A stretch of 64,000 bases of DNA from Prauserella marina. GTDB lineage: Bacteria > Actinomycetota > Actinomycetes > Mycobacteriales > Pseudonocardiaceae. Below, piece by piece: positions 14,622 to 34,390 of the stretch (position 1 is the stretch's first letter; each line of letters opens with the position of its first letter). Under the pieces are notes generated by a model. That model had not been told where the DNA came from and did not search any database. It worked only from the letters and a program-made list of their open reading frames with translations. The stretch covers positions 4,142,501 to 4,206,500 of the forward strand of contig NZ_CP016353.1 of the NCBI RefSeq assembly GCF_002240355.1. The letters run 5' to 3'. The translations under genes and the position numbers were made by a program.

Positions 14622-15581
14622 TCAGACCAGATTGGACTCAAGAATGCGGGCATTGACAGGAGCGGCGGCAGGCACGGTCAGGCCGATTCTCTCGCGCATC
14701 CACTCCCCCATCACGCGGATCGCGTTGTCCGCTTCCGGAGCATGTCCAGCGAGCAGAGTAAAGTCGTGCTGCATCTCCGGGACAACATGGACAGACACGG
14801 AGACACCCGCACGCTCGGCATGCTCGGCGAACCGGTGGGTGTCGTCCAGTAACGTTTCATGACCGCCGGTGTGGATGAGCATCGGCGGCAGCCCCCTGAG
14901 GTCCGCCCACAATGGATTGATACGTGGATCGTCAGGACGCACCGAACCGAGCAAAGCGGCGCGCATTCCTTCCAGGATGGGCTTTTGCACGACCGCGTCC
15001 AGCGGAGCGTTGGTCTCCAGCGTTTCCGACGACAGTGTCAAGTCGTACCACGGGGACATCGGCGCGATCGCTGCGGGCAAGGGCAGTCCGAGTTCGCGAA
15101 GCCGCAACACGACCGTCGTGCAGAGGTTGCCCCCGGCCGAGTCGCCGACGGAGGCGATCTGCCGGGCCGGAATTCCTTGCCCCAGCAGCCATCGATAGGC
15201 GGTCACCCCGTCTTCGATCTGGGCGGGGAACGGGTGTTCAGGGGCGAGCCGGTAGTTCAGGACCAGCGCACGGGCGCCGACCGCGCTGGCGAGATGCCCG
15301 GCGAGTTTTCGATGCAAATACATCGAGCCGACCATGAAGCCACCACCGTGGAAATACAACAGCACCCGGTCGACCGCGCATTCCTTTGGCACACACCACA
15401 ACGCGGGAACTCCGTTGACATCGGTCTCCGCGTAGCAAACATTCTCCGGTTCCCGTGTCACGACATGTAATTCCTCGAACAGGTCCCGCATGGTCGCGAG
15501 GTCCATATCGGGGCATTCGGCCATACGCGCGGCCAAGGATCGGTAAAGTTCGGTCAGCCGCTCAGAAGACTCACTCGCCAT
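14622..15581 (-). CDS. Alpha/beta-hydrolase esterase of the hormone-sensitive-lipase family
   Basis: 319 residues. The oxyanion motif HGGGF is near residue 77, the nucleophile motif GDSAGG near 145 and the catalytic His in EMQHDF near 271; the acidic residue is probably the Asp in HETLLDD, about 27 residues before it. This matches HSL-type carboxylesterases that hydrolyse short-chain esters. No signal peptide is visible, so it is cytoplasmic. It starts at an ATG with GGAG 7 bases upstream. Its promoter region holds a copy of the 16-bp cluster operator at 15670, so it probably belongs to the same regulon and may release an acid from an ester substrate before CoA activation. Confidence 0.88.
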   Translation of the reverse strand: MASESSERLTELYRSLAARMAECPDMDLATMRDLFEELHVVTREPENVCYAETDVNGVPALWCVPKECAVDRVLLYFHGGGFMVGSMYLHRKLAGHLASAVGARALVLNYRLAPEHPFPAQIEDGVTAYRWLLGQGIPARQIASVGDSAGGNLCTTVVLRLRELGLPLPAAIAPMSPWYDLTLSSETLETNAPLDAVVQKPILEGMRAALLGSVRPDDPRINPLWADLRGLPPMLIHTGGHETLLDDTHRFAEHAERAGVSVSVHVVPEMQHDFTLLAGHAPEADNAIRVMGEWMRERIGLTVPAAAPVNARILESNLV

Positions 15582-15669
15582 GTCACGCTCCGTTCAACCA
15601 ATAGTGGCTCTCGCCACCAGGCCGACTCGATGATTAACGTGACGTTAAATTCCACAAGCGAGTATGTCA

Positions 15670-15685
15670 ATGATCGTTCATACAT
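15670..15685. promoter_or_regulatory. Cluster operator 1 (ATGATCGTTCATACAT)
   Basis: This 16-mer is identical to the one in the TetR promoter at 25128-25143, 9.4 kb away. It lies 85 bases upstream of the esterase. The 231-base gap around it (15582-15812) holds no gene and is AT-richer than its surroundings. Confidence 0.75.
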
Positions 15686-15812
15686 AACGACCGTAACAGT
15701 CTGAACACAAACGACCATTTGTTGTCAGCAATAGCTGATTGCAAATTGCCGTAGATTCCTCCTTGAATCTCATGAAACATATTCACCACCCGCGTGTACG
15801 CGAGTTCCGAGG

Positions 15813-17084
15813 TCACACGGTACGCAGCAAGACCGAGGTGGTGTCGCCGCCGCCGGACAGTGCGGCGGTGAGCACCGTGGGCCGCGCGGATCGGGAAAAC
15901 GCGGCCGCTTCGCCCACCACTGGCGTCGCGGGCAGTCGCTTGTAGGGCGTGACGAGGTTCGCGGTGGGGGCAATCCGCTCGGCGTCGAGCATGACCAATC
16001 CGGAGAGGACTTTCAACAGGCCCACCGCACCGGGAAGATGACCGTAGCAAGCTTCCTGGGAGGTGATGTACAGAGGCGAATCGTCGGCAAGCGAGTCTCG
16101 AAGAGAGTCCACTGTGTCGCACAGGAAGTTTTCGAGTTCGCGGTTTCCTTCGGCGAAGTCGCAGAAGCAGGCGAGATCGTCGAACGTGACGTCGGCGGAG
16201 CGCAACAACCCGGCCAAGTCCCGGCCGTAGGGAACCGGATCGCCCAGTCCCATCGCATTGTTCCCGCCGTTGCGGGAAGAAAGCATGGCGACTTCGATGT
16301 TGCCGTCCCCCTCGGTGGCGGGGCCAAGAACGAATGCCATCGCACCTTCCGCCGGCGCGTTGCCGGTTTGCACTTCGTCGTGAGGGCGCACGTCACTTGG
16401 GTCTGCCGAAGTGCTGGATGCGCGGTGGCCGGTGCGGGTCTGGTAAGCCGTGCTCGAAAGGAAAAGCGGCTCCAGCGGTGTTTCCACCCCAACCACGATC
16501 GCGTGCTCGACCTCACCGCGCGCAACCATGTTCGCACCGAGTTCGAAGCCACGCAGTGACACACTGCATCCACCGGTCAGCGTGAAGGTGGGAATGTCGA
16601 GCCCCAGGTTCATGCACAGCATCGAGGCGATGGCGCCGGGGGTGGCCGTGGCCCAGTACCGCATACCGACTCCGGAAGGCCCCTGATCGTCGAACCGGCG
16701 CATCAGGCGGATCACTTCCTGCACGGAGAACTGCAACGAGGTCAGGATCAGAACCGCCCTGCCATCGCTGATCTCTCGTGCCGTCAGACCCGCGTTGTCC
16801 ATCGCGTCGACGACAGCCGCGTGCGCCAGCCTGCCCGCTCGCGGCGTTCGCCTGATCACCGCGTCCGGCAGGTCCAGTTCTTCAGTGAACTCCTCCGGAA
16901 CCCGGCCCGCCACCCTGACCGCGCTGTCGGTCAGATCGAGCGGGCTGATGGCGGAGCGTCCGGACAACACCGTCCCGGCGAACTCCTTGACGTCGCGGCA
17001 AGACCGGTCCACACCTGGCAGGACCATGCCCACTCCACGAATACCGAGCCGCTTCCAGACACCCTCACGATCCGTCCGCACCAT
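15813..17084 (-). CDS. Ketosynthase-like protein (FabF fold) with degenerate catalytic triad
   Basis: 423 residues from the ATG at 17084, which follows GGGGAGCGGGA; a GTG at 17099 is the alternative. The active-site Cys is kept (TLTGGCSVSLRG, near residue 173), as is the second His (CYGHLPGAVGLL, near 349). The HGTGT motif is replaced by CDFAEGN near residue 310, so the first His is lost, and the Lys of the STKS element is replaced (SQEACYGH). Standard FabF chemistry needs Cys-His-His plus that Lys, so this protein may be a partner subunit, an acyltransferase, or a ketosynthase with altered chemistry. It follows the CoA ligase in the same operon and is transcribed from the promoter with operator 2. 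Confidence 0.75.
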   Translation of the reverse strand: MVRTDREGVWKRLGIRGVGMVLPGVDRSCRDVKEFAGTVLSGRSAISPLDLTDSAVRVAGRVPEEFTEELDLPDAVIRRTPRAGRLAHAAVVDAMDNAGLTAREISDGRAVLILTSLQFSVQEVIRLMRRFDDQGPSGVGMRYWATATPGAIASMLCMNLGLDIPTFTLTGGCSVSLRGFELGANMVARGEVEHAIVVGVETPLEPLFLSSTAYQTRTGHRASSTSADPSDVRPHDEVQTGNAPAEGAMAFVLGPATEGDGNIEVAMLSSRNGGNNAMGLGDPVPYGRDLAGLLRSADVTFDDLACFCDFAEGNRELENFLCDTVDSLRDSLADDSPLYITSQEACYGHLPGAVGLLKVLSGLVMLDAERIAPTANLVTPYKRLPATPVVGEAAAFSRSARPTVLTAALSGGGDTTSVLLRTV

Positions 17085-17166
17085 TCCCGCTCCCCGCACG
17101 TCCCTGAAATTCCTTGCCCCATCAGGACACCTCGAATCGGGGAGGGGGAACAGTGCCCGCGGGTAC

Positions 17167-18753
17167 TCAGTGAGTCAGCGGATGCGCGATCGGCTCGTGG
17201 CGAAGCCGGATGCCCGCTGCCTCCCTGTCCCAGGTGTCCGCGGCGACGCCCTCGGCGCGTAGTCGATGCTTCTCGATTTTGGCGGTAGGGGTCTTCGGCA
17301 GTTCGGGCAGGACGCGGACATATCTGGGCACCATGAAGTAGGCAAGCCGCTCGATGAGGAAGCTGATCAGTTCCCCCGGATCCACAGACTGCCCGGCGAC
17401 CGGCGCGACGACGGCGAGGACATCGTCCTCGCCGTGCGGGCTCGGTACCGCGACCACGGCCGCCTCGCCGACGCGGGGATGCGCCAGTACTTCGATCTCC
17501 ACGTCGAAGGAGGAGATGTTTTCCCCTCGTCTGCGGATGGTGTCCTTCACCCTGTCCACGAAGAAAAACTCACCATCGGCGTCGCGACGGAAAGCGTCCC
17601 CGGTGTGGAACCAGCCGTTGCGCCATGCCCGGGCAGTCGCGCTCGGCATGCCCCAGTAGCCGGAGTTCATCGCCCACGGCCGGTCCGTGCGCAGCACCAG
17701 TTCTCCAGGCGTTCCGTCGGGAACCTGACGATCGTGCTCGTCGACCACCCGCGCCTCGACTCCTTCGCGTACCCGGCCACAGGTACCCCGAGTCGGCGGA
17801 TCGACCTCGGAGATGATGGGGATCGAGGTCTCCGTCATGTTGAACATCGCGACCACCTCGACCCCGAACCGCGTCGCGAACCCCTGGACGTCGTCGATCA
17901 AGGGCACCATGAACACGTGCCGCAGCGGGTTGTCCCGGTCCTGGGGCGAGTGCGGCTGTTTGGCCAGGAATGTCGCCATGACACCGAGCAAGGTCACGTG
18001 GGTGGTGCCTGTCTCGCGGATCGTCTCCCAGAACCTGCTGGTGTCAAAACGGTCCACGAGCGCGATGGAGGCTTCCATGAGCAGTGCCGCGTATGTGCCG
18101 ACGGTGCCGCCCGCGTGGAACAACGGCAGATTGACCATATAGCGGTCGTCTCGCCCGAAGCTGCCCTCGAAAGCGGCACCGCCACTGGTGGCCAGCTGCA
18201 CATAGGAACACACGACACCTTTGGACGGTCCGGTCGTGCCCGAGGTCAGGATGATCGCGTAGGGGTCCCACGGTTCGACAGGCCGATCCGGCTCCACGAG
18301 CGGCCCTCCCTCGTCCGGCCACGTCTCAGGGAGCAGCCGCACGACGTGCTCCAGCTCGCCGCCTTCGATGTCGTCCAGCCGGTCGAGCAAGCCAGGGGCG
18401 GCAACCATGACCTTCGCGCCCGACAAAGAGATCGCGTGCTCCAGCAGGCGTCCGCGGTAGGCGGGGTTGAGCGGAACGTAGATCGCCCCGAGGAGGTTGA
18501 TTCCGAACCAGACCCGCAGCGCGTCGGGCCCGTTGGGCAGCCAGGACAGCACCCGGTCGCCATGCCGGACCCCCAGTTCGGAAAGGCGCCACGCCACCGC
18601 GTTCGCGGCTCGCAGGGTCTGAGCGTAGGTCCAGGTGCTCCCGTCGCCGAAGACCGCGTATGTCCGGTCAGGTTGTTCTGTGGCACGACGCCTCAACAGT
18701 GGTCCCAGCACACACTCGTTCGCGCTCGGGATTTCCGGGCTCGACCAATCCAT
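17167..18753 (-). CDS. Acyl-CoA ligase, AMP-forming (CaiC/FadD-like)
   Basis: 528 residues. The phosphate-binding loop ILTSGTTGPSKG is near residue 168, MFNMTETSIPI is the A5 motif, GWFHTGDAF is A7, VDRVKDTIRRRGENIS is A8, and the C-terminal PKTPTAKIEK carries the adenylation Lys. The enzyme activates a carboxylic acid to acyl-AMP and then acyl-CoA. The overall pattern resembles crotonobetaine/carnitine-CoA ligases and related small-acid ligases. The ATG at 18753 follows GAGG at 8 bases. It is the first gene of a ligase-ketosynthase operon and divergent from the thiolase, so it is likely to start the pathway. The acid is not identifiable. Confidence 0.87.
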   Translation of the reverse strand: MDWSSPEIPSANECVLGPLLRRRATEQPDRTYAVFGDGSTWTYAQTLRAANAVAWRLSELGVRHGDRVLSWLPNGPDALRVWFGINLLGAIYVPLNPAYRGRLLEHAISLSGAKVMVAAPGLLDRLDDIEGGELEHVVRLLPETWPDEGGPLVEPDRPVEPWDPYAIILTSGTTGPSKGVVCSYVQLATSGGAAFEGSFGRDDRYMVNLPLFHAGGTVGTYAALLMEASIALVDRFDTSRFWETIRETGTTHVTLLGVMATFLAKQPHSPQDRDNPLRHVFMVPLIDDVQGFATRFGVEVVAMFNMTETSIPIISEVDPPTRGTCGRVREGVEARVVDEHDRQVPDGTPGELVLRTDRPWAMNSGYWGMPSATARAWRNGWFHTGDAFRRDADGEFFFVDRVKDTIRRRGENISSFDVEIEVLAHPRVGEAAVVAVPSPHGEDDVLAVVAPVAGQSVDPGELISFLIERLAYFMVPRYVRVLPELPKTPTAKIEKHRLRAEGVAADTWDREAAGIRLRHEPIAHPLTH

Positions 18754-18788
18754 GTCACGGCCTCGCTTCCCCGCTCTCATCAACAGAG

Positions 18789-18804
18789 ATGTATGAGCGT
18801 TTAT
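18789..18804. promoter_or_regulatory. Cluster operator 2 (ligase promoter)
   Basis: On the minus strand this reads ATAAACGCTCATACAT, sharing the ACGYTCATACAT core with operators 1 and 5. It is 36 bases upstream of the ligase ATG. Confidence 0.6.
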
Positions 18805-18882
18805 AAACATCGGACGTCACGTACGTCAAGCAAGCTTTCTACAGGCCATGGTTGCTTCTCACGCGTTCTCAAGTTGTACTGT

Positions 18883-18898: not shown

Positions 18899-18918
18899 AT
18901 CGGATGAAGGGTTCCGAG

Positions 18919-20151
18919 ATGCCAGAACCGGTATACGTCCTGGGTGGCACGCAGACCGACTTCGCGGTGAACTGGACGAAAGAGGACGAAGAGCCGCTGA
19001 CGTCGATGCTGCGGGAGGCTGTCGCGGGCGCGCTGATCGACGCCAGGGTCGAACCCGAGGAGATCCAGACGGCGCACGTGGGCAATTTCGGTGCCGAGCA
19101 GTTCACCGGCCAGTCGCATCTGGGTGCGCTGGTGCCGATGCTCTACCCGGCTTGGCATGGGCTTCCGACGAGCAGGCACGAAGCCGCGTGCGCGTCGGGA
19201 AGCATCGCGTTGCTGGCCGCGACCGCCGAAATCGAAGCGGGCCGCTACGACATCGCGCTGGTGGCGGGCGTGGAACTGATGCGAAACATCCGTGGCGACC
19301 AGGCCGCGCGGCACCTCGGTTCCGCCGCCATGGTGCCAGAGGAAACCGCCTCCGACGATTTGCCGTGGCCTTCCCTTTTCAACCGCATCGCCGAGGAAAC
19401 CGACCAACGACATGGCTTGGACCAGCGATATCTCGACCGCATCGCCGAAATCAACCGCACCAACGCACGGCGGAACCCGAAGGCGCAGACCCGCGACTGG
19501 ACCCTCGAACCCGAACAGTTCACCGCCGATGACATCGTGAACCCGATCGTCACCGGGCGCACCCGTAAAAGCGACTGTGGCCGCATTACCGACGGGGCCG
19601 CCGCGGTCGTACTCGCGGGACGCCGCTTCGCCGACGAGTGGGCGCGCGGGCAGCGCGGTGCGCCACGAAGCCGCGTGCTGGGCTGGGGCCATCACACCGC
19701 TCCCCTTCCGCTGCGGAGCAAGTTTCTGGCGAGCAAGCCGGACGATTACCTGTTCCCGCACGTCCGGGACGCCATCTTCGATGCCTACCGCCGCGCGAAC
19801 CTGCAAGGACCGCGCGATCTCGACGTCATCGAGACCCATGACTGTTTCACGATCACCGAGTACATGGCACTCGAACACTTCGGGCTCACCGGCCCCGGCG
19901 ATGCCTGGCAGGCCATCGAAAACGGGCTGATCGACTTCGAAGGCCCCCTTCCGGTGAACCCGTCGGGCGGGCTTATCGGTGCCGGACATCCGGTTGGCGC
20001 GACCGGCGTCCGGATGCTTCTGGACGCACACCGGCAAGTGACCGGGACCGCGGGCGGCTATCAGGTCGAGGCCGCCCGGAAAGCGGGCACGCTCAACATC
20101 GGTGGCAGTGCCAGCACGGCCGTCAGTTTCATGATCGGTGCGGCGGACTGA
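18919..20151 (+). CDS. SCP-x-type thiolase
   Basis: 410 residues from the ATG at 18919 (AAGGG upstream; ATG 18904 possible). The nucleophilic Cys is in HEAACASGSIAL near residue 91. THDCFTITEY carries one catalytic His and GAGHPVGATG the other. The C-terminus has NIGGSAST where classical thiolases place their second Cys, as in SCP-x thiolases that cleave branched or steroid side-chain 3-oxoacyl-CoA. Such thiolases often work with a DUF35 (OB-fold/zinc-ribbon) partner, but none is present nearby. It is the only plus-strand gene in this cluster and is divergent from the ligase. Confidence 0.87.
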   Translation: MPEPVYVLGGTQTDFAVNWTKEDEEPLTSMLREAVAGALIDARVEPEEIQTAHVGNFGAEQFTGQSHLGALVPMLYPAWHGLPTSRHEAACASGSIALLAATAEIEAGRYDIALVAGVELMRNIRGDQAARHLGSAAMVPEETASDDLPWPSLFNRIAEETDQRHGLDQRYLDRIAEINRTNARRNPKAQTRDWTLEPEQFTADDIVNPIVTGRTRKSDCGRITDGAAAVVLAGRRFADEWARGQRGAPRSRVLGWGHHTAPLPLRSKFLASKPDDYLFPHVRDAIFDAYRRANLQGPRDLDVIETHDCFTITEYMALEHFGLTGPGDAWQAIENGLIDFEGPLPVNPSGGLIGAGHPVGATGVRMLLDAHRQVTGTAGGYQVEAARKAGTLNIGGSASTAVSFMIGAAD

Positions 20152-20155
20152 TCCG

Positions 20156-21652
20156 TCACGCCGAACCCACCGAACTGATGACGTCCCGAATACCCAATGG
20201 GGGCAATGCCTTCAAGGTGACCCAGCCGCCACACACACGCAGCTGCGCGCCTGTCAGGAAGCTCGAAGCCGGACTGACGAGATAGCTGATGGCCGCGGCG
20301 ACATCGTCAGGATCGGAAAGCCTGCCCAGCGGCACTCGGGACAGGGACTTCGTCACGAAGGCCGGATCGGCCGTGTCGGTCATCGGCGTCCTCACGATGC
20401 CTGGCAACACGGTGTTCACCCTGATCCGATGCCGTGACAGGGTCATCGCCAGATGCGCGCCCAGCTGAGCGGAAGCCGCCTTGCTCGAACCATAGCTGTA
20501 CAAGCCGGGAACCGGTGCCGAATGGGCGCTCGTCGACGAAACCCCGACGATCGCCCCGCGATGCTTCGTCGACGCCCACCGGCGGGCCAGCTCTTCCGCG
20601 GCGTCGGCATAGGACAGCACGTTGATCCGGTAGCTGTCTTCTCGTTGGCCCTTCCCGTCCGCGAGATCGTCACGAGCGAGAACACCGGCGGCATAGACGA
20701 GATCGGAGATCTCCCCTGCCTCGTCCCACGCTTGCCGCACCATCCGCGCCGCGGCGCCCGGCTCGGCGAGATCCGCCCGCACGATGTGTACCCGGGTGCT
20801 CAAATGCTCGCGGATGGCATTGCGCACTCGATTCAGTTCATCGGTTCGCCTCGCCACGAGCACCAGGTCCGCTCCCCTGCGGGCGAGCTCGATGGCGGTT
20901 TCCTCACCGATTCCGCTGCTGGCCCCCGTCACCAGTACGGTCCTTCCGGCCAGCGACCAGAGATCGGCTGGAGCTTCGGTCGACCGGTCGATACGCACGG
21001 TGCCTGGCGGGGACATCGGGACCACGGCCGCTTCCAGCCCTCCGTCGAGCGGCAGCACCTCACCGACCATCGTGGTCAACCCGCGGCTGTACAACAGGAT
21101 CAGGGCACCGGCCAGGTCCGCGCCGGTGACCGGGCGACGAATCACCTGGTGTGCCAGCAAATCCGACTCGACCTCAGGCGTAAGCCGGTGTCCGAGGAAC
21201 GGCGCGTAGCCAATCCTGATCGTGTTCAGCAATACGCCGTGCGGTGCGACCCTCGCCGCCAATTGTTGCCACCAGTGCAGTTCGGCCGCCTGTCGCGCCG
21301 CCTGTTCGGCGTCGGCTTGCGCGGCGGGCCATGGCAGGGCATCCGTGATCAGCACCATCCGCCCACCGCCCGCCCGAATCATCCGTTCGGCCGTGTCCCG
21401 GATTGTGGCCCGGGGAAGCTCGATGTCGCCGTCCCTCGATCCGAACACGGCGTTGGCGACCTGCACGACGCACAGCGCGGTTCGCGCCGGGCGGTTCCTG
21501 CCCATCGCGGTCGCGGTCAGGAAACCGGCCCCCCTGAGCACCTCGTGCACCGCCACCGCGGCCTCGCCGCCCGCGGCGACTTCGACCACTCGGGCGCACG
21601 GATACAACGAGGTTGTTCTGAGCGCGGCAGGAACGCTCGTAGCGCTGGCCAT
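20156..21652 (-). CDS. Didomain SDR protein: degenerate N-terminal plus intact C-terminal SDR
   Basis: 498 residues, twice the SDR length. The C-terminal half (from about residue 232) is a standard SDR with TGASSGIG, the SST stretch and YSYGSSKAA, which contains the catalytic Tyr-x3-Lys. The N-terminal half has no TGxxxGIG but keeps late SDR landmarks such as NTIRIGYAPFLG and EVLPLDGG just before the second domain, so it looks like a decayed SDR fused in front. The ATG at 21652 has GGAGG at a good distance. It lies last in a three-SDR run and converges with the thiolase with only 4 bases between stops. The role of the degenerate domain is unknown; it may be a dimer partner. Confidence 0.8.
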   Translation of the reverse strand: MASATSVPAALRTTSLYPCARVVEVAAGGEAAVAVHEVLRGAGFLTATAMGRNRPARTALCVVQVANAVFGSRDGDIELPRATIRDTAERMIRAGGGRMVLITDALPWPAAQADAEQAARQAAELHWWQQLAARVAPHGVLLNTIRIGYAPFLGHRLTPEVESDLLAHQVIRRPVTGADLAGALILLYSRGLTTMVGEVLPLDGGLEAAVVPMSPPGTVRIDRSTEAPADLWSLAGRTVLVTGASSGIGEETAIELARRGADLVLVARRTDELNRVRNAIREHLSTRVHIVRADLAEPGAAARMVRQAWDEAGEISDLVYAAGVLARDDLADGKGQREDSYRINVLSYADAAEELARRWASTKHRGAIVGVSSTSAHSAPVPGLYSYGSSKAASAQLGAHLAMTLSRHRIRVNTVLPGIVRTPMTDTADPAFVTKSLSRVPLGRLSDPDDVAAAISYLVSPASSFLTGAQLRVCGGWVTLKALPPLGIRDVISSVGSA

Positions 21653-21767: not shown

Positions 21768-22628
21768 TCACCTGGCTCCGTTATCCTGAAAACGGAACTG
21801 CTGGTGACGTGGTGTCCAACCAGAACTGTTGCGCACTCTGAAGTCCGTGCCGAACCAGCCAGGAGAGTACGCGCTCCCGCCACCGTCCACGAGCAGCGCC
21901 GCGCCGTTCACGTAGGCACTGTCCGCCGACGCGAGGTAGGCGATCGCGTCGGCGACATCTTCCGGACGTCCCAGCCGTCCCAATGGCGATTCGGCTTCGT
22001 TGTAGCCGCGAGAATCACCGTCGAGCAAGCTGTTGGTCATCGACGTCTCGGTCACTCCGGGCATCACGGCGTTCGCACGGATGTCGTACTGCCCCAGTTC
22101 GTAAGCCATGATCTTGACCATCATGTTGAGAGCCGCCTTCGCCGAACAGTAGGCGGAAAACAGTGCGACCGGTTCGATCGCTCCAGAGGAGGAGGTGACC
22201 ACAATGGACCCTCCGTTTCCGGCCGTCGCCATCCGGCGCGCAGCCTCCTGGCACACCGCGAAAGTCCCGGTGACATTGACCTCGAACGTGCGCTCCCAGA
22301 CCCGGCGGGGCATTTCCAGAAAAGTACCGAACCGGCCCCAGCCCGCATTCGCCACGCAAATGTCCAGCCGGCCGTGTTCTTCGACAAGCCGGTCGAACAA
22401 CGCGTCGACCTGATCGGGTTTGGTCTGGTCGCATTCGAAGCCCCAGGCCGCGCCCCCGGCCTCGGCGATCTCCTTCGCGGTGGTCAGCGCTCCGGCACCG
22501 TCGAGGTCGGCGATGACGACGTGAGCACCATCCGTGGCGAGCCTGCGCGCCGCCGCCGCGCCAATCCCGGATGCACCTCCTGTCACCAGTGCGACACGAT
22601 CGGCCAATGGCTTGGTGCTGCTATCCAT
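21768..22628 (-). CDS. SDR-family oxidoreductase
   Basis: 286 residues. TGGASGIG near residue 16, VANAG in place of NNAG, the SSSG serine, and the catalytic YCSAKAALN near residue 162. The fold ends at LLVDGGGSAY, followed by about 35 extra residues rich in Phe, Arg and Gln without a recognisable domain. It is 18 bases downstream of the next SDR in the same operon and 115 bases before the didomain SDR. A separate promoter in that gap is possible but not evident. The substrate is unknown. Confidence 0.83.
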   Translation of the reverse strand: MDSSTKPLADRVALVTGGASGIGAAAARRLATDGAHVVIADLDGAGALTTAKEIAEAGGAAWGFECDQTKPDQVDALFDRLVEEHGRLDICVANAGWGRFGTFLEMPRRVWERTFEVNVTGTFAVCQEAARRMATAGNGGSIVVTSSSGAIEPVALFSAYCSAKAALNMMVKIMAYELGQYDIRANAVMPGVTETSMTNSLLDGDSRGYNEAESPLGRLGRPEDVADAIAYLASADSAYVNGAALLVDGGGSAYSPGWFGTDFRVRNSSGWTPRHQQFRFQDNGAR

Positions 22629-25097: not shown

Positions 25098-25127
25098 TCC
25101 ACACCTCGTCGATAAGCCAGGGGCTAT

Positions 25128-26289: not shown

Positions 26290-27134
26290 GGCGTGCCGCA
26301 GTCGACCGAGAACGATTCACCGGTGATCGACCGAGCGGCACCGCTGAGCAAGAACGCGGTCAGTTCGGCGATTTCGCCCGGTTCGATGAGGTGTTTCAAC
26401 GCGCTCGCCCGCACGGTACTTCGCCAGTACCGCTCCCAGGTCAGGTCGGCAGGGCCCGCGTTCCGGCGGACACTGTCCATGAAGTCCTTGCCGTACAACG
26501 ATTCGTCGCTGACCATGTCCGTGTCGGTGAAGGCAGGGCAAATCGCGTTGACCCGCACTCCGGACGGCCCGGTTTCCAGCGCCAGCGAGCGGACGAGGCC
26601 GTTGATCCCCCATTTCGAGGCCGCATAGGCCGTGTTGGCCGGAACTCCTCGCTTTCCAGCGGCACTGGAGATCACGACGATCGCACCCCGCGCCCGTTCC
26701 ATCATCCCTGGAACGACCGCACGGCATAACCGGAACGTACCGTTCAGATTGGTGTCCATCGTCCGTAGCCACGCATCCTCGTCCTGCTCGCACAGGTACT
26801 TCTGCCCAGCGGCGGTTCCCGCGTTGTTCACCGCGAAGTCGACAGGACCGAGCGTGCGTTCCACGGTCGCGACGGCCCGGCGCACAGACTCCAGATCGCG
26901 CACGTCAGCGGGGTGCGCGAAGGCGGTTCCGCCCTCGGCGAGAATCTGTTTCTCCGCAGTACGAAGCCGTTCCTCACCGCGTCCGAGGAGCGCGACCGCG
27001 GCACCGTCGGCAGCGAGTTTCGTCGCGATGCTCAGTCCGATGCCGCTTCCAGCTCCGGTGACCAGAGCCACGCTGCCTTCGAAGGGGTATTTGGCTTGGG
27101 TCGAATCAAACGATTCGGTTGGGGAAACCGCCAC
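26286..27134 (-). CDS. SDR-family oxidoreductase
   Basis: 282 residues. TGAGSGIG near residue 26, NNAG near 106, SSAAG, and the catalytic YAASKWGI near 172. Compared with minimal SDRs it has about 20 extra N-terminal residues and an insertion after [10 protein letters not shown] of about 30 residues, a pattern seen in larger substrates' SDRs. The GTG at 27134 has GGAGG upstream, and the gene overlaps the preceding SDR by 29 bases, so the two are coupled. Confidence 0.83.
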
Positions 27135-27900
27135 CGTGCACCTCCAGAACTGTTCCGGTCAGGTATTCGTTGTCCAACGCGTGCAGCACACTCGCGACCA
27201 CCTCGTCCTCGGAAGCGAAGCGCCGCAACGGAATCCCCTGGCGCAGGCGCTCCATGTAGTCCGCATGCGCGGGCCTGGCAGCGGCCTTGTCCCTGAGGGC
27301 CCTTCCATCGACGACACCCGGCGCGACGCACACCACCCGAATGCCGAAATCCGCGAGTTCCAGAGCCCAGCTGCGGGTGAGCGAGACAACCCCGGCTTTG
27401 GCCGCGGCGTAGGCGCTTTGCCCCCAGGAGCCTTGCCACGTGGAACTCGCGATGGTCACCAGGACCCCGCCTCTGCCTTGCCCGGCCCACGTGCGCGCGG
27501 CCGCACGGCCGACGAGGAAGGTGCCGGTCAGGCAAAGCCCGATGACGTCCTGCCATTCTCGCTCGGTGTGTTCCCGCCAATCCCCTTCCGGCGCCGAAGG
27601 CGGGGCGATCAGCCGCCGGGACAAATTGCGCCCCGCCGTGTTCACGCAGCCGAGAATCGGAACGTCGGCGAGATCGCGGAAGAGCGCGTCCACGCTCTCG
27701 GCGCTGCTCGCGTCGACATGATGGCAGCTGATGGGGAGATCTTTGTCCCGTGCGATCTCGGCGACAGCCGCCAGCTTCGTTTCATCTCGTGCGGCGGCGA
27801 TCGCGGGACGGCCCGCCGCGGCCAGTTTCAACACCGTCGCGAGCCCGATTCCGCTGGTACCACCTACCACAAGGACGGCAGGAGCTCCGAAGTCGTTCAC
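27106..27900 (-). CDS. SDR-family oxidoreductase
   Basis: 264 residues from the GTG at 27900, chosen for AAAGGA 7 bases upstream; a GTG at 27918 would overlap the previous gene. GGTSGIG near residue 13 replaces the usual TGxxxGIG, VNTAGRN replaces NNAG, and YAAAKAGV near 164 holds the Tyr and Lys. The C-terminal FPNRIV is unusual. It lies 11 bases after the FabH-like gene and overlaps the next SDR, inside the long operon. The substrate is unknown. Confidence 0.82.
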   Translation of the reverse strand: MNDFGAPAVLVVGGTSGIGLATVLKLAAAGRPAIAAARDETKLAAVAEIARDKDLPISCHHVDASSAESVDALFRDLADVPILGCVNTAGRNLSRRLIAPPSAPEGDWREHTEREWQDVIGLCLTGTFLVGRAAARTWAGQGRGGVLVTIASSTWQGSWGQSAYAAAKAGVVSLTRSWALELADFGIRVVCVAPGVVDGRALRDKAAARPAHADYMERLRQGIPLRRFASEDEVVASVLHALDNEYLTGTVLEVHGGGFPNRIV

Positions 27901-27911
27901 TCGTCGTCCTT

Positions 27912-28892
27912 TCAGCACAGCCGGTAGAGCATCGCGCCGTAGTACCAGCCGGCACCGATCGCCGGACTCAGCACAAGATCACCGGGCCGGAACCGGCCCG
28001 CCGCCATTTCCTCCGCCAGCACGATCGGAATCGACGCGCTTGAGGTGTTGCCACGCCGGGCGAAATTGACCACGAACTTCTCTTCCGGGACCTCCAGTTC
28101 CTGGCGCACTCTGCGGTGCACGACATCGGTACCGGGGTGCGGCACGACCCAGTCGACGTCCGCCATGCTCACCGCGCTGTGTCCCAGCACCTCGGCGCAC
28201 GCCTCGACCAGGCTCGCCGCCGCGTGATCGGGAAGGCTCTCCTTGCTGCGAACCCAGCCCTTCGGCGGCCGGGCGCTGATCACGTCCGCACGCGATCCGT
28301 CACTGTGCAGCACGATGTCGATGAGCCCGTGCTGGTCGGCGCTCTTGGTGAGCACGACCGCGCCCGCGGCGTCGGAGCAGACGAGTTCTCCCCTGCTTCC
28401 AGGGCGAACCCGTCGGCTGAACTGCTCCGAACAGACCACCAGCGCGTATCCAGTCTCCGGCGCCGCCCGAAGGTAGGCTGCCGCGGTCTGGACACCGTGC
28501 AGAAAGCCCACGCACGCGCCGGCGACATCGAACGCGAACGTCTCCGGGATCCCCAGCAATGCCGCCGTCTGTGGCCCGTGATCGGGGGTGTAAGCCGGTG
28601 TGGTCCAGTTGGAGAGCACGATGACATCGAGGTCCGCCGGTTCGATACCAGCGTCCTTGATCGCCTGCCTGCCGGCCTCGGCGGCCATGAAAGGAATCGT
28701 CTCGGTGTCGTCACTGCGATGACGAGACCGGACGGACACGTTTCCCAATACCCTGGCGTCGATGTCGTTGCCGGTTTCAGTGGAATCAGCCTCGTTGGCG
28801 ATCATCTCAGCCGGGTAGTAGAGCCCGAATCCGGTGAGTGCGATACCGGCATCCGCCCAGCGCGGTCCGCGAGTACTCGTTTTCGCCATCAT
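27912..28892 (-). CDS. FabH-like 3-oxoacyl synthase (KAS III family), copy 1
   Basis: 326 residues, the KAS III length. The Cys is in DVAGACVGFLHG near residue 127, the His in VPHPGTDVVH and the Asn in RRGNTSSASI, so the Cys-His-Asn triad is complete. The Gln-Ala of the classical PHQAN motif is changed. KAS III enzymes condense an acyl-CoA primer with malonyl-ACP; OleA-type relatives join two acyl-CoAs. With no ACP in the region, a CoA-only reaction is the more likely one. Start ATG 28892 has AAAGG at 6 bases. It is 20 bases after the second FabH-like gene. Confidence 0.84.
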   Translation of the reverse strand: MMAKTSTRGPRWADAGIALTGFGLYYPAEMIANEADSTETGNDIDARVLGNVSVRSRHRSDDTETIPFMAAEAGRQAIKDAGIEPADLDVIVLSNWTTPAYTPDHGPQTAALLGIPETFAFDVAGACVGFLHGVQTAAAYLRAAPETGYALVVCSEQFSRRVRPGSRGELVCSDAAGAVVLTKSADQHGLIDIVLHSDGSRADVISARPPKGWVRSKESLPDHAAASLVEACAEVLGHSAVSMADVDWVVPHPGTDVVHRRVRQELEVPEEKFVVNFARRGNTSSASIPIVLAEEMAAGRFRPGDLVLSPAIGAGWYYGAMLYRLC

Positions 28893-28912
28893 GACAACCT
28901 TTCGGCCGGGAA

Positions 28913-29914
28913 TCAGGACAGGGGTGCGCCGTAGTGGAAGATCATCGATCCCCAGCTGAAACCGCGGCCGATGCTCATCGCCAGAATCCGCTGGCCGCGC
29001 CGGATCACCCCGCGGTGCACGTACTCCGAAAGACAACCGGGAACGCTGACACTTGAGGTGTTTCCCCTGCGGTCGATGTTGACCAGAACGCGCTCGGGAC
29101 GCAGGTCCAGCAGCGTTCCCACGTCCTGGATGATGTGAATGTTGCCCTGGTGCGGGATGATCCAGTCGATGTCGTCCAGGCTGCTGCCATTGCGGAGCAG
29201 TACTTCGCGGGTGACCTCCTCAAGACAGCGGGGCGCGAGATCACCGACAACTTTTCCTTTCATGATCATCTTGTCGTCGTCGTCGATGTCGAAAGCCTCG
29301 TAATGTTCACCATCCGCACGCAGGACGGCACATTCCAACCCGGCGGCACCCGACGTCCGGCGCCAGACCCCAGCGGCGGCCCCTCCCCCGAACAACGTCG
29401 CGTTGCGATAGCCGAAATTGAGGATCGGTCGCGGGTCTTCGGCACAGACGACGAGCACCGTTTCCACCCCTGGCTGAGCCAGAAGTCCCTGTGCCACGAC
29501 ACTTCCGTGCAAGAAGCCGGCACAGGCGACTCCGGTGACATCGAACGCGAAGGCGTTGCGGACCCCCAGCCTCGACTGCAACGGAAGCGCGAGATCCATG
29601 TACCGATTGCCCGCGGTGGTCGGATTGACTCTCGGCCTCGCCGTGGCACTGGTTCCGACTATGACGTCCACATCGGACGCGTCGAGACCCGCGTCCTTGA
29701 GCGCCATCGCGGCGGCACGCTCGGCGAGGTCGACGTGGTGTTCCCCTGGCCTCGCCCAATGCCGGCTTCCCACACCCGTGTGCGCGCGAATCCAAGCGTC
29801 GTCGACTCCGAGGCCGGGGTGCTCGGTTTCGAAGAAGTCGTTACCCACCGGCTGGCCGGGAAAATCGTGACCGACACCCGCGAGGACAACATGAGCCGGA
29901 GCAGTCGGACTCAT
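28913..29914 (-). CDS. FabH-like 3-oxoacyl synthase (KAS III family), copy 2
   Basis: 333 residues. Cys in VTGVACAGFLHG near residue 131, His in IPHQGNIHII and Asn in RRGNTSSVSV: a complete triad. The Arg expected after PHQGN in ACP-dependent FabH is absent (NIHIIQ), which argues against contact with an ACP phosphopantetheine in the usual way. It diverges strongly from copy 1, so the two are not a recent duplication and may form a heteromer, as PqsB/PqsC do. The ATG at 29914 overlaps the CoA-transferase stop. Confidence 0.84.
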   Translation of the reverse strand: MSPTAPAHVVLAGVGHDFPGQPVGNDFFETEHPGLGVDDAWIRAHTGVGSRHWARPGEHHVDLAERAAAMALKDAGLDASDVDVIVGTSATARPRVNPTTAGNRYMDLALPLQSRLGVRNAFAFDVTGVACAGFLHGSVVAQGLLAQPGVETVLVVCAEDPRPILNFGYRNATLFGGGAAAGVWRRTSGAAGLECAVLRADGEHYEAFDIDDDDKMIMKGKVVGDLAPRCLEEVTREVLLRNGSSLDDIDWIIPHQGNIHIIQDVGTLLDLRPERVLVNIDRRGNTSSVSVPGCLSEYVHRGVIRRGQRILAMSIGRGFSWGSMIFHYGAPLS

Positions 29915-31527
29915 CGGTATACCCCTTCCGGATCGAGCTTTCGTAGCGCGGCCAGCTCGTCGTCGGTGACCGGCTTCTCTGGTTCGGGCCTGCTGTCCGG
30001 GACCGGCCAGCGCGTCCGCGATCGCATGGTGGCGACCGGATCCGCGTCCGGAGTGTCGTCGGGTGGCAGCCAGGTGTGGAGCCGGAAGCTCTCGCTCGGG
30101 TCTTGCCTGCCGAGCCGGCCGTACTGGGTCACCACGGTGCGCACGTTGTCGCCAGGACACGTCGTGAAGCTGACGTTCGGCACGAGCCTTCGTGGAGATG
30201 CCGGGGCCACCACGAGAGTCTCAAGGTGGCTCGCGAAATCGTTGGCCCCGCCGGATCCGACGAAATACCCCCCGTCCGCGGTACGGCTGCTGTTGATCCG
30301 GCCCTCGGCGTCGATCTCACCCGCCGAAAGGACGGCCAGCGCTTTGCCGCTTCCGCCTGAGACCAGCGCACCGAGAACATCCAGGCTGTCCCCATACGTC
30401 CGGCAGCGAGCAACGTGACGCTGCGAGAACAGGAAGACATCACCGGCCGCGGGGCGCATGTCGATCAACCCCAGCTCGGCATGTACCTGGACCCGTTCGC
30501 CAACGGCACCCAGACGCTCGGCGGCCAGCCACGCCGCGACGTGGGCGGTGCCGATTCCGGCGAGGATCGTGCCGTAGCCGGTTTCCAGCACACGGTCGAC
30601 AATCGCGCGAGCCGCGAGAACGATGTGTTTTTCCCGCCAGGACGGGGCCCCCGCGGCGACGACGGATGGCGCGGGTGTGCTGGAGCCACCGGTCTCGCCA
30701 TCGTGCCGCTCCGGTGCTGCCACGAGCTTGTCGTGAACCCAGGCGGCACGTTCCTCCGCTGTCCGGCAGCTGCGGGCGAGTTCGGCGAGATACTCGTAGT
30801 CGTCCTGGTATCCATCGAAGTGACATTCGGGCCATGCGGGCAGTCCCTGTGGATGAGCCCCGAACGCACGCACGGCGATGCCCAGAACGCGGTCAGCCGG
30901 GATGGATCTGCCTTCCAGAGGTGGGGTGTCGACGATCTTCTCCACCGTGGCGAGGACACCGTCACGCGCGGCCATCGCGCCCCACCAGCCTTCACCACCA
31001 GGCCCGTTCAGGTAGAGGTTCCCCAGCCGGTCCGCGCAGGTCGCGTGAACCAGCGTGATGTCCGGACGTAACGCGGGGACGAGAACGGCCCGCCGCCCGC
31101 CGCGCTCCACGAGCGGAAGGTTCCGGTTCAGGTCCGACCCCACCAGAGAAGTGGTAACCGCGAACGGGCTCCCTGTGGCACCGGCGATCAGGCGTTGCAG
31201 CAGCGACAGCAGGCTCCACTCCTCGACGGGGAACGGGTCTCCCCCCGGGAGCCCCGAATAGAGCGGGTTCGGCTGGGAGGAGGGATAGGTGTCCCCCGCG
31301 AAGCAGGTGATGGCGTGCCGGACGATCCCGGCCATCGTGAGCGCGTGCATGTTTCCGTGGAAAGCATTCGAGCTGATCTCGAAGGTCGCCACGCCCCGGA
31401 ACACCCGCGCCATGGCGAGTACCAGTGCGTTGGGTCTCGACATCGTCGAGGCGACGTGCACACGCATACCGTCACGAAGGTGCCCCCGGCAGAGGTCTTC
31501 CGGTGAGGGGTGAACGACCGGAGTCAC
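29911..31527 (-). CDS. Family-I CoA-transferase, alpha and beta subunits fused (IpdAB/glutaconate-CoA-transferase-like)
   Basis: 538 residues. The N-terminal 280 residues resemble subunit A (MRVHVASTMSRP, then FAGDTYPSSQPNP), and the C-terminal 240 resemble subunit B, with AELGLIDMRP near residue 365 and GGYFVGSGGANDFAS, the latter close to IpdB. Family-I enzymes transfer CoA between acids through a glutamyl-CoA; the steroid-pathway IpdAB instead opens a ring. The Glu in AELGLI may be the catalytic residue. The two subunits are usually separate genes. GTG 31527 overlaps the ketosynthase stop (GTGA) and the stop overlaps the FabH-like start (ATGA). Confidence 0.8.
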   Translation of the reverse strand: MTPVVHPSPEDLCRGHLRDGMRVHVASTMSRPNALVLAMARVFRGVATFEISSNAFHGNMHALTMAGIVRHAITCFAGDTYPSSQPNPLYSGLPGGDPFPVEEWSLLSLLQRLIAGATGSPFAVTTSLVGSDLNRNLPLVERGGRRAVLVPALRPDITLVHATCADRLGNLYLNGPGGEGWWGAMAARDGVLATVEKIVDTPPLEGRSIPADRVLGIAVRAFGAHPQGLPAWPECHFDGYQDDYEYLAELARSCRTAEERAAWVHDKLVAAPERHDGETGGSSTPAPSVVAAGAPSWREKHIVLAARAIVDRVLETGYGTILAGIGTAHVAAWLAAERLGAVGERVQVHAELGLIDMRPAAGDVFLFSQRHVARCRTYGDSLDVLGALVSGGSGKALAVLSAGEIDAEGRINSSRTADGGYFVGSGGANDFASHLETLVVAPASPRRLVPNVSFTTCPGDNVRTVVTQYGRLGRQDPSESFRLHTWLPPDDTPDADPVATMRSRTRWPVPDSRPEPEKPVTDDELAALRKLDPEGVYR

Positions 31528-32804
31528 GCCGCCTCCAGGGTGACCGCCGAACTCTGACTGCCGATCGCGAAGGACAACGACATCGCCCGTTCCACCCGAG
31601 TCGAACGGGCACCGTCCTGTACGTGGTCGTGATCGCATTCGGGGTCGACGTCGACGCAGTTGATCGTGGGAGCGAGCCGTTGATGGCACATCATCTGGAC
31701 CGTGGCCGCGCAGTTCAACAGGCCGGATGCGCCGAGCAGGTGACCAAACACCGGTTTGATCGACCCCAGTGGCGGCCAGCGATCCACCCGGTCGCCATAG
31801 ACGAGTCGCATGGCCCGGCTCTCGGCAAGGTCGTTGTAACGGGTAGCGGTCCCGTGCCCGCAGATGTAGTCGATGTCGCCCGGTGCGAACCCTGCCGCGT
31901 CGGTTGCCCGCAGGATCATGTCGGCGGTGAACCTCCCGGAAAGATCCATTCTGGTGGCGTGTCCGGCTTCGTTGAGACTCACCGTGGAGCAGACCCGTGC
32001 ATAGGGTTCCCGCTTCCGCCTGCTGGCGTGTTCCCTTGTCTCCAGCACCATCGCGACGGCACCTTCCCCCAGAGCGAAACCGTCGCGGTTGCGGTCGTAG
32101 GGCTTGATCGTCGTTGCCGGATCGCCGTCCGAACGCGACAAGACCCCCGCTGTCGGAGACGAATAGATCTGTAGCATTTCCGGCACGAACGGAGTTTCGT
32201 GCCCGACGAGCACCATCACGTCGGCGTTTCCCGTTTCGAGAAGCTGCGACGCGAACCCGATCGCCTGATGCCCACCCACGCAGGCATTGCTCAAGGTCGT
32301 CACCGTGCCACGCGCACCTAGCCGAATCGCACTCAACGTGGCCGGACTGCCCGCCAGAGAAGCGAAAACCGCGTGATCGATCTCCACCGGTGGACAGGCG
32401 GCGTCCACGGCGCTCCCACTGCTCGTCTGCGACCACCATTCGACCGGTCCGCGCGAACTCGAACCGATCACGCCGGTCCGTTCGGGACACAGTTCACTCT
32501 GATAATCGCGCAGACCCGCGTCACTCCAAGCTTGTTCGACCGCGGAGAGCGCCATCAGGATCTCGCGGCTGTATCGCTTCGCGAAGGTGTCCGGCAGATC
32601 GGGAATATGTTCCCGATGGTCGAATTCCCAGACGCGACCGCCCGCGCGGCACTGACCTGTCTCCCCCTGGCCGCCCACGATGCCGTCGGGCAAGCGGCTC
32701 AGCTGGGAGACGCCTGCTTCCAGCTTCCGCCACACCTCGTCGTTTCCGACCGCGCCAGGCAGGACGAACCCCATCCCGGTGATGACCACGTCTTGGTTCT
32801 CCAC
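31524..32804 (-). CDS. Ketosynthase, FabF-like (KAS II), complete triad
   Basis: 426 residues from the GTG at 32804 (GGAG upstream). Cys in SNACVGGHQAIG near residue 174, His in CGHGTATRYND near 316 and GSIKPVFGHLLGASG near 355 with the second His and the Lys. This is the intact counterpart of the degenerate ketosynthase at 15813. The family condenses acyl thioesters with malonyl units. Without an ACP gene here it may use CoA thioesters or ACPs from the general fatty-acid system. It lies 22 bases after the enoyl-CoA hydratase. Confidence 0.83.
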   Translation of the reverse strand: MENQDVVITGMGFVLPGAVGNDEVWRKLEAGVSQLSRLPDGIVGGQGETGQCRAGGRVWEFDHREHIPDLPDTFAKRYSREILMALSAVEQAWSDAGLRDYQSELCPERTGVIGSSSRGPVEWWSQTSSGSAVDAACPPVEIDHAVFASLAGSPATLSAIRLGARGTVTTLSNACVGGHQAIGFASQLLETGNADVMVLVGHETPFVPEMLQIYSSPTAGVLSRSDGDPATTIKPYDRNRDGFALGEGAVAMVLETREHASRRKREPYARVCSTVSLNEAGHATRMDLSGRFTADMILRATDAAGFAPGDIDYICGHGTATRYNDLAESRAMRLVYGDRVDRWPPLGSIKPVFGHLLGASGLLNCAATVQMMCHQRLAPTINCVDVDPECDHDHVQDGARSTRVERAMSLSFAIGSQSSAVTLEAA

Positions 32805-32826
32805 CTTTGTCTCCTCTGTGTTGGGC

Positions 32827-33621
32827 TCAACGCCCGGCGAAGCGTGGTTGCCGCCTTTCCCTGAGCGCTCGCAGCCCTTCCTCGCTGTCGGCCACCTCGT
32901 TGTGACTGAGCTGGTGATAGCGATCCTGGAGGCGCAGCGCGTAGAGGGCCGACTGTCCTTCGCAGCGCTCTCGCATGTCCTTGAACAAGCCAATTGCCTT
33001 CGTCGGCCCGGCCGCGAGCTGCTGAGCGAGCGTGATCGCGGTGTCGGTGACGGACTGGTCGTTGGGCGCGATTCGGTCGAGCAGGCCAATCCTGCTTGCT
33101 TCCGCTGCCTCGACCATCCGGCCGGTGAGGAAGATTTCCGTTGCCCTGGCGGGTCCGACGACCCTGCGCAACATCGCGGCGACTCCCACATGCCCGGCAT
33201 GGATCAGCCCGCACCCCAACCGAGTCCCCGGCCCCCCTACTCGCAGATCGGCCGCGCACGCCAGCTCGACGCCCGGACCGATCGCGGCTCCCCGGACCGC
33301 GGCGATCACCGGCTTCGGCGCAAGCAGCAGCTCTTCGCACACCTTCAGATAGAAAGCCTCGCCCGTGTCGGCCGATGCGGGAGCGACACCGACGTCGCCC
33401 GCGCGAAACCCTTCTATCGCAGCCAGATCATCACCCGCGCAAAAGGCTTCCCCCGTGCCCCGCAACACGATCGCCCGCACATCGACCGATCGCGCCGCGC
33501 CGACGACCGCTTCCAACAGCCGCCGGCCCGAATCGTAGTCGAGACTATTGCGCCGCTGAGGACGATCAAGAGAGATGACGACGACGTCCTTGTCACGATC
33601 CTCCACGACTGAAGCAGACAT
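32827..33621 (-). CDS. Enoyl-CoA hydratase/isomerase (crotonase family)
   Basis: 264 residues from ATG 33621; the ATG at 33630 is an alternative. Crotonase landmarks are LDRPQRRNSLDYD at the N-terminus, GTGEAFCAGDDLA forming the first oxyanion loop, and AAVRGAAIGPGVELACAADL for the second. At the two hydratase Glu positions only one acidic residue is obvious, so the specific reaction (hydration, isomerisation, or C-C cleavage) cannot be assigned. It lies 64-73 bases after the response-regulator gene at the head of the long operon. Confidence 0.83.
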   Translation of the reverse strand: MSASVVEDRDKDVVVISLDRPQRRNSLDYDSGRRLLEAVVGAARSVDVRAIVLRGTGEAFCAGDDLAAIEGFRAGDVGVAPASADTGEAFYLKVCEELLLAPKPVIAAVRGAAIGPGVELACAADLRVGGPGTRLGCGLIHAGHVGVAAMLRRVVGPARATEIFLTGRMVEAAEASRIGLLDRIAPNDQSVTDTAITLAQQLAAGPTKAIGLFKDMRERCEGQSALYALRLQDRYHQLSHNEVADSEEGLRALRERRQPRFAGR

Positions 33622-33694
33622 TCGTTCCATTGCCCTTCACCCGATTCGACAGCTCCTCACAAGCAAACCGTCATGTGCGCGCGGCCAGTAGTCC

Positions 33695-34390
33695 TCAGGA
33701 GTACCGAACCATCGGGTGTTCGGGGACTCCGAGTACCGCGTTGTCTTGCGGTACCCTGGCGAACGGGATCACGTTCGCACCGGCTTGCGGCCGAACGGCG
33801 GCAAAGAGCGCGCGACGGTTGGGAAACCCGATCTTCCGCAACACCCGGCTGGCGTAGTTCTTCACGGTTTGCACCGCCAAGAACAACTCCTGGGCGATCT
33901 CGTCATTCGACCTTCGCTGCAGCATCAGGCCCAGAACCTCCTTCTCGCGGTCCGTCAATCCCGCCCCGGCCACGGACAGCTCCGGGACCGGCTGTTCGAC
34001 GGAGTTCCCGAGCAGCCACTGCCGGTCCCCGGCGATGGTCCGCCCGACGGCTTCGGTGAACCGCTCAGGAGAAACGGACTTGTGGACGAAGCTGTCCGCC
34101 CCGGCGTTCAACACGGCCGCGATGGCCGGAGGAGACGCGTCCGCGCTGAATACCAGCACCCGCGTACGCCATTCTTTCTTGACATGATGGCAAAGTCGCA
34201 GACCGGCCGACTGCCCCCGCTCGGCGATGTCGGTGACCACGAGGTCGGCACCCGGCCCGTCAGGTTGCCGCAGGACACTTCGCAGATCCCGGACTTCGGC
34301 CACCGAGCAGCCGCTTTCAGTGAGCAGCGCGCGAACAGCGAACCGGATCAACGGCTGTTCATCGACAACGAGCACCTTGCTTACCGTCAT
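33695..34390 (-). CDS. LuxR-type response regulator (NarL/FixJ), orphan
   Basis: 231 residues. A receiver domain occupies the first 120: acidic DEQP, the phosphoacceptor Asp in VVTDIAERG near residue 53, and the conserved Lys in FVHKSVS near 103. The C-terminal LuxR helix-turn-helix is LTDREKEVLGLML then NDEIAQELFLAVQTVKNY. There is no histidine kinase nearby. The ATG at 34390 follows GGGGA. It heads the minus-strand operon down to 25183, so it could control this operon itself. The signal is unknown. Confidence 0.86.
   Translation of the reverse strand: MTVSKVLVVDEQPLIRFAVRALLTESGCSVAEVRDLRSVLRQPDGPGADLVVTDIAERGQSAGLRLCHHVKKEWRTRVLVFSADASPPAIAAVLNAGADSFVHKSVSPERFTEAVGRTIAGDRQWLLGNSVEQPVPELSVAGAGLTDREKEVLGLMLQRRSNDEIAQELFLAVQTVKNYASRVLRKIGFPNRRALFAAVRPQAGANVIPFARVPQDNAVLGVPEHPMVRYS

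Follow-up and report, generated by a model that had tools for sequence, protein, structure and literature searches.

The 64,000-nucleotide stretch of the Prauserella marina genome (~7.0 Mb) analysed here (contig NZ_CP016353.1, positions 4,142,501-4,206,500; hereafter the window, in whose numbering coordinates are given) carries a discrete island of ~21 kb (~13272-34738), extending from an AraC-family regulator gene through a LuxR-type regulator gene. We predict, with a probability of about one half, that this island encodes a coenzyme A (CoA)-tethered pathway of ketoacyl synthases (KAS) that acts independently of an acyl carrier protein (ACP) and makes a possibly methyl-branched specialised metabolite. 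The encoded proteins comprise two FabH-like enzymes, one canonical and one divergent FabF-like enzyme, five short-chain dehydrogenases/reductases (SDR), a ligase, a thiolase, a racemase, a crotonase, a CoA-transferase, an esterase, an amidohydrolase and three regulators. A CoA-based KAS pathway fits this set because no ACP was found, because the ACP-docking surface is lost and FabH1 still has its CoA site, and because the partners are of CoA type, with the ligase, CoA-transferase, racemase, crotonase and thiolase all drawn from families of CoA-ester enzymes.

Gene calls combined with Pfam and NCBIfam scans recovered every gene named by the original prediction for this DNA, and added to these the amidohydrolase and the AraC, TetR and LuxR-type regulators. 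The island genes are as follows:

13529-14566, plus strand: AndR-like regulator of the AraC family (score under the AndR model's cutoff), with relatives in the clusters of Amycolatopsis thermalba and of genomes G065 and G606
14622-15581, minus strand: hormone-sensitive-lipase (HSL)-type esterase (PF07859, E 6.6e-56; best NCBIfam model the GESAG-type HSL at 267 bits, short of its cutoff of 430)
15813-17099, minus strand: KAS_A, divergent FabF-like protein with Cys and the second His kept and H303 and K335 lost, a possible partner subunit of FabF
17167-18810, minus strand: PRK06155-like acyl-CoA ligase (score under the PRK06155 cutoff)
18919-20151, plus strand: SCP2-type thiolase (PRK06289 model at 594.5 bits, cutoff 375; PDB matches; motifs)
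20156-21652, minus strand: SDR1, a degenerate N-terminal half plus an active-type SDR domain
21768-22628, minus strand: SDR2
22647-23396, minus strand: SDR3
23484-24446, minus strand: amidohydrolase-2 protein (PF04909, E 2.1e-26; by PDB matches distantly related to gamma-resorcylate and ACMS decarboxylases)
24480-25103, minus strand, start approximate: TetR-family regulator
25183-26289, minus strand: 2-methylacyl-CoA racemase, MCR/AMACR type (E 4e-143)
26286-27134, minus strand: SDR4, FabG-like
27106-27918, minus strand: SDR5, FabG-like
27912-28886, minus strand, start approximate: FabH2, KASIII with Cys-His-Asn kept and the basic ACP patch and Trp32 lost
28913-29917, minus strand, start approximate: FabH1, KASIII with Cys-His-Asn and the CoA-adenine residues W32/R151 kept and the basic ACP patch lost
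29911-31500, minus strand, start approximate: fused alpha-beta family I CoA-transferase (PF01144), catalytic Glu kept
31524-32804, minus strand, start approximate: FabF, canonical KAS II with Cys-His-Lys-His
32827-33630, minus strand: crotonase, first catalytic Glu kept and second apparently replaced (motifs by eye)
33695-34474, minus strand: LuxR-type response regulator with no adjoining kinase gene

The dedicated ACP typical of a type II polyketide synthase (PKS) cluster was not found. A rebuilt in-house ACP hidden Markov model (HMM) detected none in the island, the window or the 20 kb on either side, and the Pfam PP-binding model (E <= 0.001) gave 19 matches across the whole genome, none closer than ~320 kb to the window, which bears out the original prediction of an ACP-free neighbourhood. 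The rebuilt HMM likewise found no ACP around the related clusters of G065, G606, A. thermalba, Allosalinactinospora, a Streptosporangiaceae metagenome-assembled genome (MAG), G073 and G333 (best non-ACP match, E 0.11), contig ends setting the reach of the search at 30 kb in total for A. thermalba and 6.7 kb for L055; for the plasmid locus L060, 31 kb were read. The same model recovered E. coli AcpP, an ACP of the own genome, an independent domain at the own-genome locus L068 (E 7.8e-6) and, from Streptomyces, four ACPs on which it had not been trained (E < 1e-18), although two close relatives of these had been used in training.

The two island KASIII enzymes have lost the docking surface that such a carrier would contact. 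In a tree of 42 KASIII rows (13 FabH1, 19 FabH2), FabH1 and FabH2 each form a separate group (100/100) distinct from the housekeeping FabHs, with a tool warning that some long-branch joins may be false; the own-genome KASIII matches L068, L069 and L070 (the first two not retrieved by the FabH queries, the third not entered) and the duplicate row L057_11883 were left out of the counts. Housekeeping FabHs (E. coli and two from the own genome) carry an aromatic residue at 213 and basic residues at 214, 249 and 256 (F213/K214/R249/K256 in E. coli). An aromatic residue at 213 occurs in none of the 13 FabH1 and none of the 19 FabH2 sequences, and Lys or Arg is found in FabH1 in one, zero and one sequence at 214, 249 and 256, respectively, and in FabH2 in zero, five and four, so that the full basic patch is missing from both enzymes in every compared cluster. 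FabH1 retains W32 and a basic residue at 151 throughout (13/13 each); these belong, with R36, to the CoA site of E. coli FabH according to passages of PMC8036411, and a W32/R151 adenine stack is described in a part of PMC4606726. FabH1 thus combines the catalytic triad and CoA residues with a missing patch, as expected of an ACP-independent KASIII, and FabH2 has the triad and no patch with Trp32 lost (0/19). An internal control comes from the ACP-adjacent FabH of Streptomyces relatives, which has basic residues at 214 and 249 and W32 in 6/6; its position 213 is Tyr and its position 256 is non-basic. Passages of PMC8036411 also describe the A. baumannii FabH counterparts of 214 and 256 (mapped here by offset) as well conserved for ACP binding. 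In FabF, position 206 is basic in 0/10 canonical FabFs from clusters with no ACP found, in 4/6 from Streptomyces and in 2/2 housekeeping enzymes (columns 127/128 were excluded, as the alignment shifted there between runs). We take position 206 to be an ACP-docking site.

The window FabF keeps C163/H303/K335/H340, the Cys-His-His (and Lys) set of a type II PKS ketosynthase (KS) and the one used in decarboxylative synthesis. KAS_A and its kin retain the Cys and the second His and lack H303 and K335, with the Cys, QEA and GH motifs kept in 11/11 aligned rows, and the predicted model of KAS_A (predicted local distance difference test, pLDDT, 80.3) matched FabF and KS/chain-length-factor (CLF) structures at similar scores with no separation. 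Both FabHs preserve the Cys-His-Asn triad, and the thiolase its ACASG, HDCF and GHPVGATG motifs. The CoA-transferase matches glutaconate-CoA-transferase-family chains (5mzw_A, 1poi_B) and aligns a Glu, E332, invariant in 10/10, with a Glu of GctB (1poi_B) that we take to be catalytic; the predicted model is poor (mean pLDDT 60.7), and its fold match indicates no more than a CoA-transferase fold with alpha and beta parts. The racemase aligns over its full length with solved 2-methylacyl-CoA racemases (E 4e-143), including all three catalytic motifs (presumably centred on His126, Asp156 and Glu241), which upholds the original assignment and removes the alternative of a mere generic CoA-transferase III. 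The crotonase keeps, by eye, one of two usual Glu residues, presumably a catalytic pair. The N-terminal half of SDR1 (20969-21652) has the look of a degenerate SDR without the Tyr-Lys pair, and most of SDR1, this half included, aligns in Streptomyces relatives.

In the pathway whose direction, CoA tether, substrates and product we infer here, the esterase may free a starter acid, which the ligase would activate, and the racemase would set an alpha-methyl centre. FabH1, perhaps with FabH2, is predicted to catalyse a decarboxylative Claisen condensation of an acyl-CoA with malonyl- or methylmalonyl-CoA, after which SDR4/SDR5 would reduce and the crotonase dehydrate or isomerise at the CoA level, and FabF, possibly partnered by KAS_A in the manner of a chain-length factor, would extend the chain. 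The CoA-transferase could then shift CoA from the product to a fresh acid, coupling release with recharging, and the thiolase, amidohydrolase and SDR1-3 are candidates for trimming and tailoring.

The island is conserved beyond P. marina, which disposes of the idea that the cluster is unique to this genome. P. marina belongs to Pseudonocardiaceae, the family of Amycolatopsis, and to a different genus; G065 and G606, which share a genus code (g26) with A. thermalba (locus L050 of G714, C207:4887-6464), each have 18/19 island genes at 44-79% identity, lacking the HSL esterase and placing KAS_A within the main operon. A. thermalba likewise has 18/19, lacking the racemase, so the gene set whose co-occurrence the original prediction had proposed to check does recur. 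The ligase relatives, for example, are 75% identical in G065, 73% in G606, 68% in A. thermalba and 57% in the Allosalinactinospora locus L049, and the LuxR-type regulator has relatives in G065, A. thermalba, G606, L075 and G333. In Allosalinactinospora, with a contig end nearby, ~11/19 genes were detected, with no AraC, esterase, SDR1, SDR2, amidohydrolase, racemase or intact regulator among them, and its KAS_A and thiolase each lie in two frames; the split of KAS_A (L049, 16818-18064) may reflect a draft error or real damage. G333 and the Streptosporangiaceae MAG have core versions with additional KAS copies. The island is rare: a CoA-transferase profile (E <= 1e-60) matched 10/397 sampled genomes of the order and 2/394 of the class, the own genome included in each, with five strong matches in the order (G000, G065, G606, G714, G073) and five at about half their score. 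Of two scans of genome contigs, one gave 10 loci and the other, queried with KAS_A, none. The CoA-transferase gene adjoins FabF in 10/10 aligned clusters.

Six Streptomyces loci (L052-L054, L056-L058), which hold more distantly related versions of the core, share FabF and the CoA-transferase, and five also have FabH1, FabH2, SDR5 and SDR1, the exception being L056, where the contig ends. Each has an opposite-strand FabH'/FabF' pair directly followed by an ACP gene, recognised in 6/6 (E 4e-7 to 1.2e-4) by an HMM that did not contain these ACPs and included one wrong-strand row (L005), later rebuilt correctly. In Streptomyces WAC 01529, the only locus read further, an MFS gene, whose product would export, precedes the cluster, and a class III aminotransferase and a methyltransferase gene are followed by a crotonase and a similar LuxR-type regulator (the last two by eye). 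The core looks biosynthetic because the WAC 01529 cluster continues with aminotransferase and methyltransferase genes, and by this comparison the Streptomyces clusters offer the strongest evidence that the core would build a product. It is a tentative possibility, with odds a little short of even, that the island represents a complete KS/CLF-type polyketide pathway that has rid itself of ACP and runs on CoA, the CoA-transferase taking over loading and release, and that the Streptomyces clusters preserve a hybrid stage in which an ACP module (ACP, FabH', FabF') sits beside a CoA module.

Several observations weigh against a CoA-tethered pathway, and some of these would suit biosynthesis of the type II PKS kind with a housekeeping or other genomic ACP acting in trans as the carrier, an alternative that we consider rather unlikely although it is the strongest rival. 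Among the 19 genomic PP-binding matches is a stand-alone ACP, adjoining a housekeeping FabH, that could act in trans, and in Streptomyces relatives an ACP does stand next to the same core, beside the second FabH/FabF pair (6/6). Basic residues remain at 68 and 69 of the window FabF, and four of the 19 FabH2 rows, all from Streptomyces and with Asn274 replaced by Gln, are still basic at three of the positions 214/249/256/257. The loss of the patch is suggestive but indirect evidence, and is not proof on its own because an own-genome KASIII outside the island, L065, also lacks it; moreover, R249 is not conserved in A. baumannii FabH according to a portion of PMC8036411. All five island SDRs lack their docking residues, but the unrelated SDR6 does too, which makes this point uninformative; the roles of these residues in SDR1-5 and SDR6 are our assumption. 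The island also has no obvious enoyl reductase. Against a carrier in trans stand the core FabH1, which lacks its docking patch also in those Streptomyces clusters that do have an ACP, and FabF position 206, which is non-basic in 10/10 clusters with no ACP found.

The thiolase and racemase fit catabolism better than a CoA-tethered synthesis, as do two PF00144 hydrolase genes and a Liv-type uptake ABC transporter that lie between thiolase and ligase in the G065 cluster; G606 has open reading frames of the same or near-same length at these positions (a likeness of length and place only). Together with the ligase, crotonase, esterase and AraC regulator, they would suit a catabolic island in which an ester or branched acid is imported, freed, activated, epimerised and cleaved, the KAS enzymes serving as retro-Claisen or acyl-transfer catalysts. 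We regard this as improbable because the synthases keep the decarboxylative machinery (H303 and K335 in FabF) and the relatives carry tailoring genes, alongside the MFS gene; furthermore, the acyl-CoA dehydrogenase of a beta-oxidation cluster is absent from the island, and the neighbouring one belongs to a block kept in congeners. Of the CoA-only Claisen or retro-Claisen route originally proposed, CoA-only chemistry is thus retained as the best reading and the retro-Claisen direction is less supported, given the FabF decarboxylation residues and the ACP and tailoring genes of Streptomyces. That the island is a decayed or regulatory leftover lacking a coherent pathway, as the lost second crotonase Glu and the lost H303/K335 of KAS_A might suggest, is very improbable in view of the open frames, the gene order conserved across families and the active-site residues invariant in relatives.

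The island is discrete. All three congeners (G001-G003) have the counterpart of the deaminase gene at 12726-13271 directly adjoining that of the TetR gene at 34739-35353, and because of this adjacency the AraC-to-LuxR stretch is one insertion or one loss. Its GC content is 0.654, compared with 0.680 for the remainder of the window; third-position GC is 0.777 for the 19 island genes and 0.833 for 33 genes flanking them (Mann-Whitney p 3.4e-5), a comparison biased in that the flanking calls used third-position GC; 10 bp are repeated at 13295 and 34740, perhaps by chance. The island was probably acquired horizontally. Next to the island (34739-46292) lies a block of TetR, SDR, acyl-CoA dehydrogenase, biotin carboxylase, carboxyltransferase, AtuA, crotonase and acetoacetate-decarboxylase-like genes kept in 3/3 congeners. 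Its dehydrogenase and biotin-dependent carboxylase (36257-41362; nearest dehydrogenase 36257-37414) were considered as island members and rejected, because they are present in the three island-free congeners and the dehydrogenase/carboxylase/AtuA block sits at a separate locus in G065 and G606. The originally noted lack of a dehydrogenase or oxygenase consequently holds within the borders and fails beyond them, where this pair is joined by adjacent FMO-like flavoprotein and cytochrome P450 genes (47387-50428) with a divergent AraC-family regulator gene alongside.

Of the characterised systems, the nearest are subfamilies of type II PKS (for instance that of cispentacin) and CoA-level KASIII systems (for instance OleA). 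With type II PKS (KS/CLF/ACP), including the reducing and cispentacin (AmcF-AmcG) subfamilies, the island shares a FabF-type KS with the full residue set, a degenerate KAS, FabG-like reductases and an adenylating ligase; it differs in that no ACP was found, the degenerate KAS keeps its Cys, and a crotonase, CoA-transferase and racemase are present. To our knowledge, FabF-type ketosynthases are taken to be ACP-dependent. The cispentacin pathway uses the ACP AmcB (as stated in a part of PMC10698177), and the passages searched of a type II PKS review do not mention ACP-free systems. With ACP-independent KASIII Claisen enzymes the island shares the KASIII fold and the loss of the ACP patch in FabH1/FabH2, along with, as predicted here, the use of CoA thioesters. 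Further CoA-linked KASIII enzymes are PqsBC, NphT7 and the lipstatin enzymes LstAB, and we know of no OleA, PqsBC, NphT7 or LstAB system with a FabF-type KS bearing decarboxylation residues or with a CoA-transferase. The original statement that a polyketide route would need an ACP was too strong, in that OleA-type enzymes act on acyl-CoA (PMC7064751).

Like the family I CoA-transferases GctAB and SCOT, the island enzyme has the family match and the beta-half catalytic Glu, and it differs from them in its fused alpha and beta halves and in adjoining FabF. AibAB and IpdAB are offshoots of this family that act as a decarboxylase and a hydrolase, respectively. Oxidation of alpha-methyl-branched acyl-CoA pairs AMACR with the SCPx thiolase; the island has the racemase and SCP2-type thiolase together, and differs in its four KAS enzymes and lack of a dehydrogenase. 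Titles and abstract openings of the open-access literature revealed no published cluster combining an ACP-independent KS with a CoA-transferase; of the searches aimed at docking residues, some, with the passages of one paper they retrieved, yielded nothing about ACP docking. If the CoA-tethered pathway is real, chain building would be separated from the carrier protein, which would make polyketide synthesis simpler both in vitro and in engineered systems and would reveal the surface residues that enforce ACP dependence; relatives with and without an ACP already provide a natural comparison, and the small size of the island would allow its transfer to a host.

The core also occurs in other contexts. 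In L051 it is followed by P450 and sulfotransferase genes. In G073 (L041, 12588-19801) it is minimal, with FabF and the CoA-transferase only, near SDR, metallo-beta-lactamase-fold and crotonyl-CoA reductase-like genes (named by eye). On plasmid pRHL3 of Rhodococcus jostii RHA1 (L059, 11878-13689), a 36% identical, fused CoA-transferase lies in a cluster of ligase, thiolase, OB-fold, dehydrogenase and hydratase genes with no annotated KAS genes. On a plasmid of Streptomyces sp. NBC_00388 (L060, 13682-21519), the genes for FabF, the CoA-transferase and a KASIII stand together with those for a HAD hydrolase, an AfsA-type protein, an SDR and another KASIII; an anthranilate-synthase gene lies 13 kb upstream, and the product may be a butyrolactone-type signal or a hybrid metabolite.

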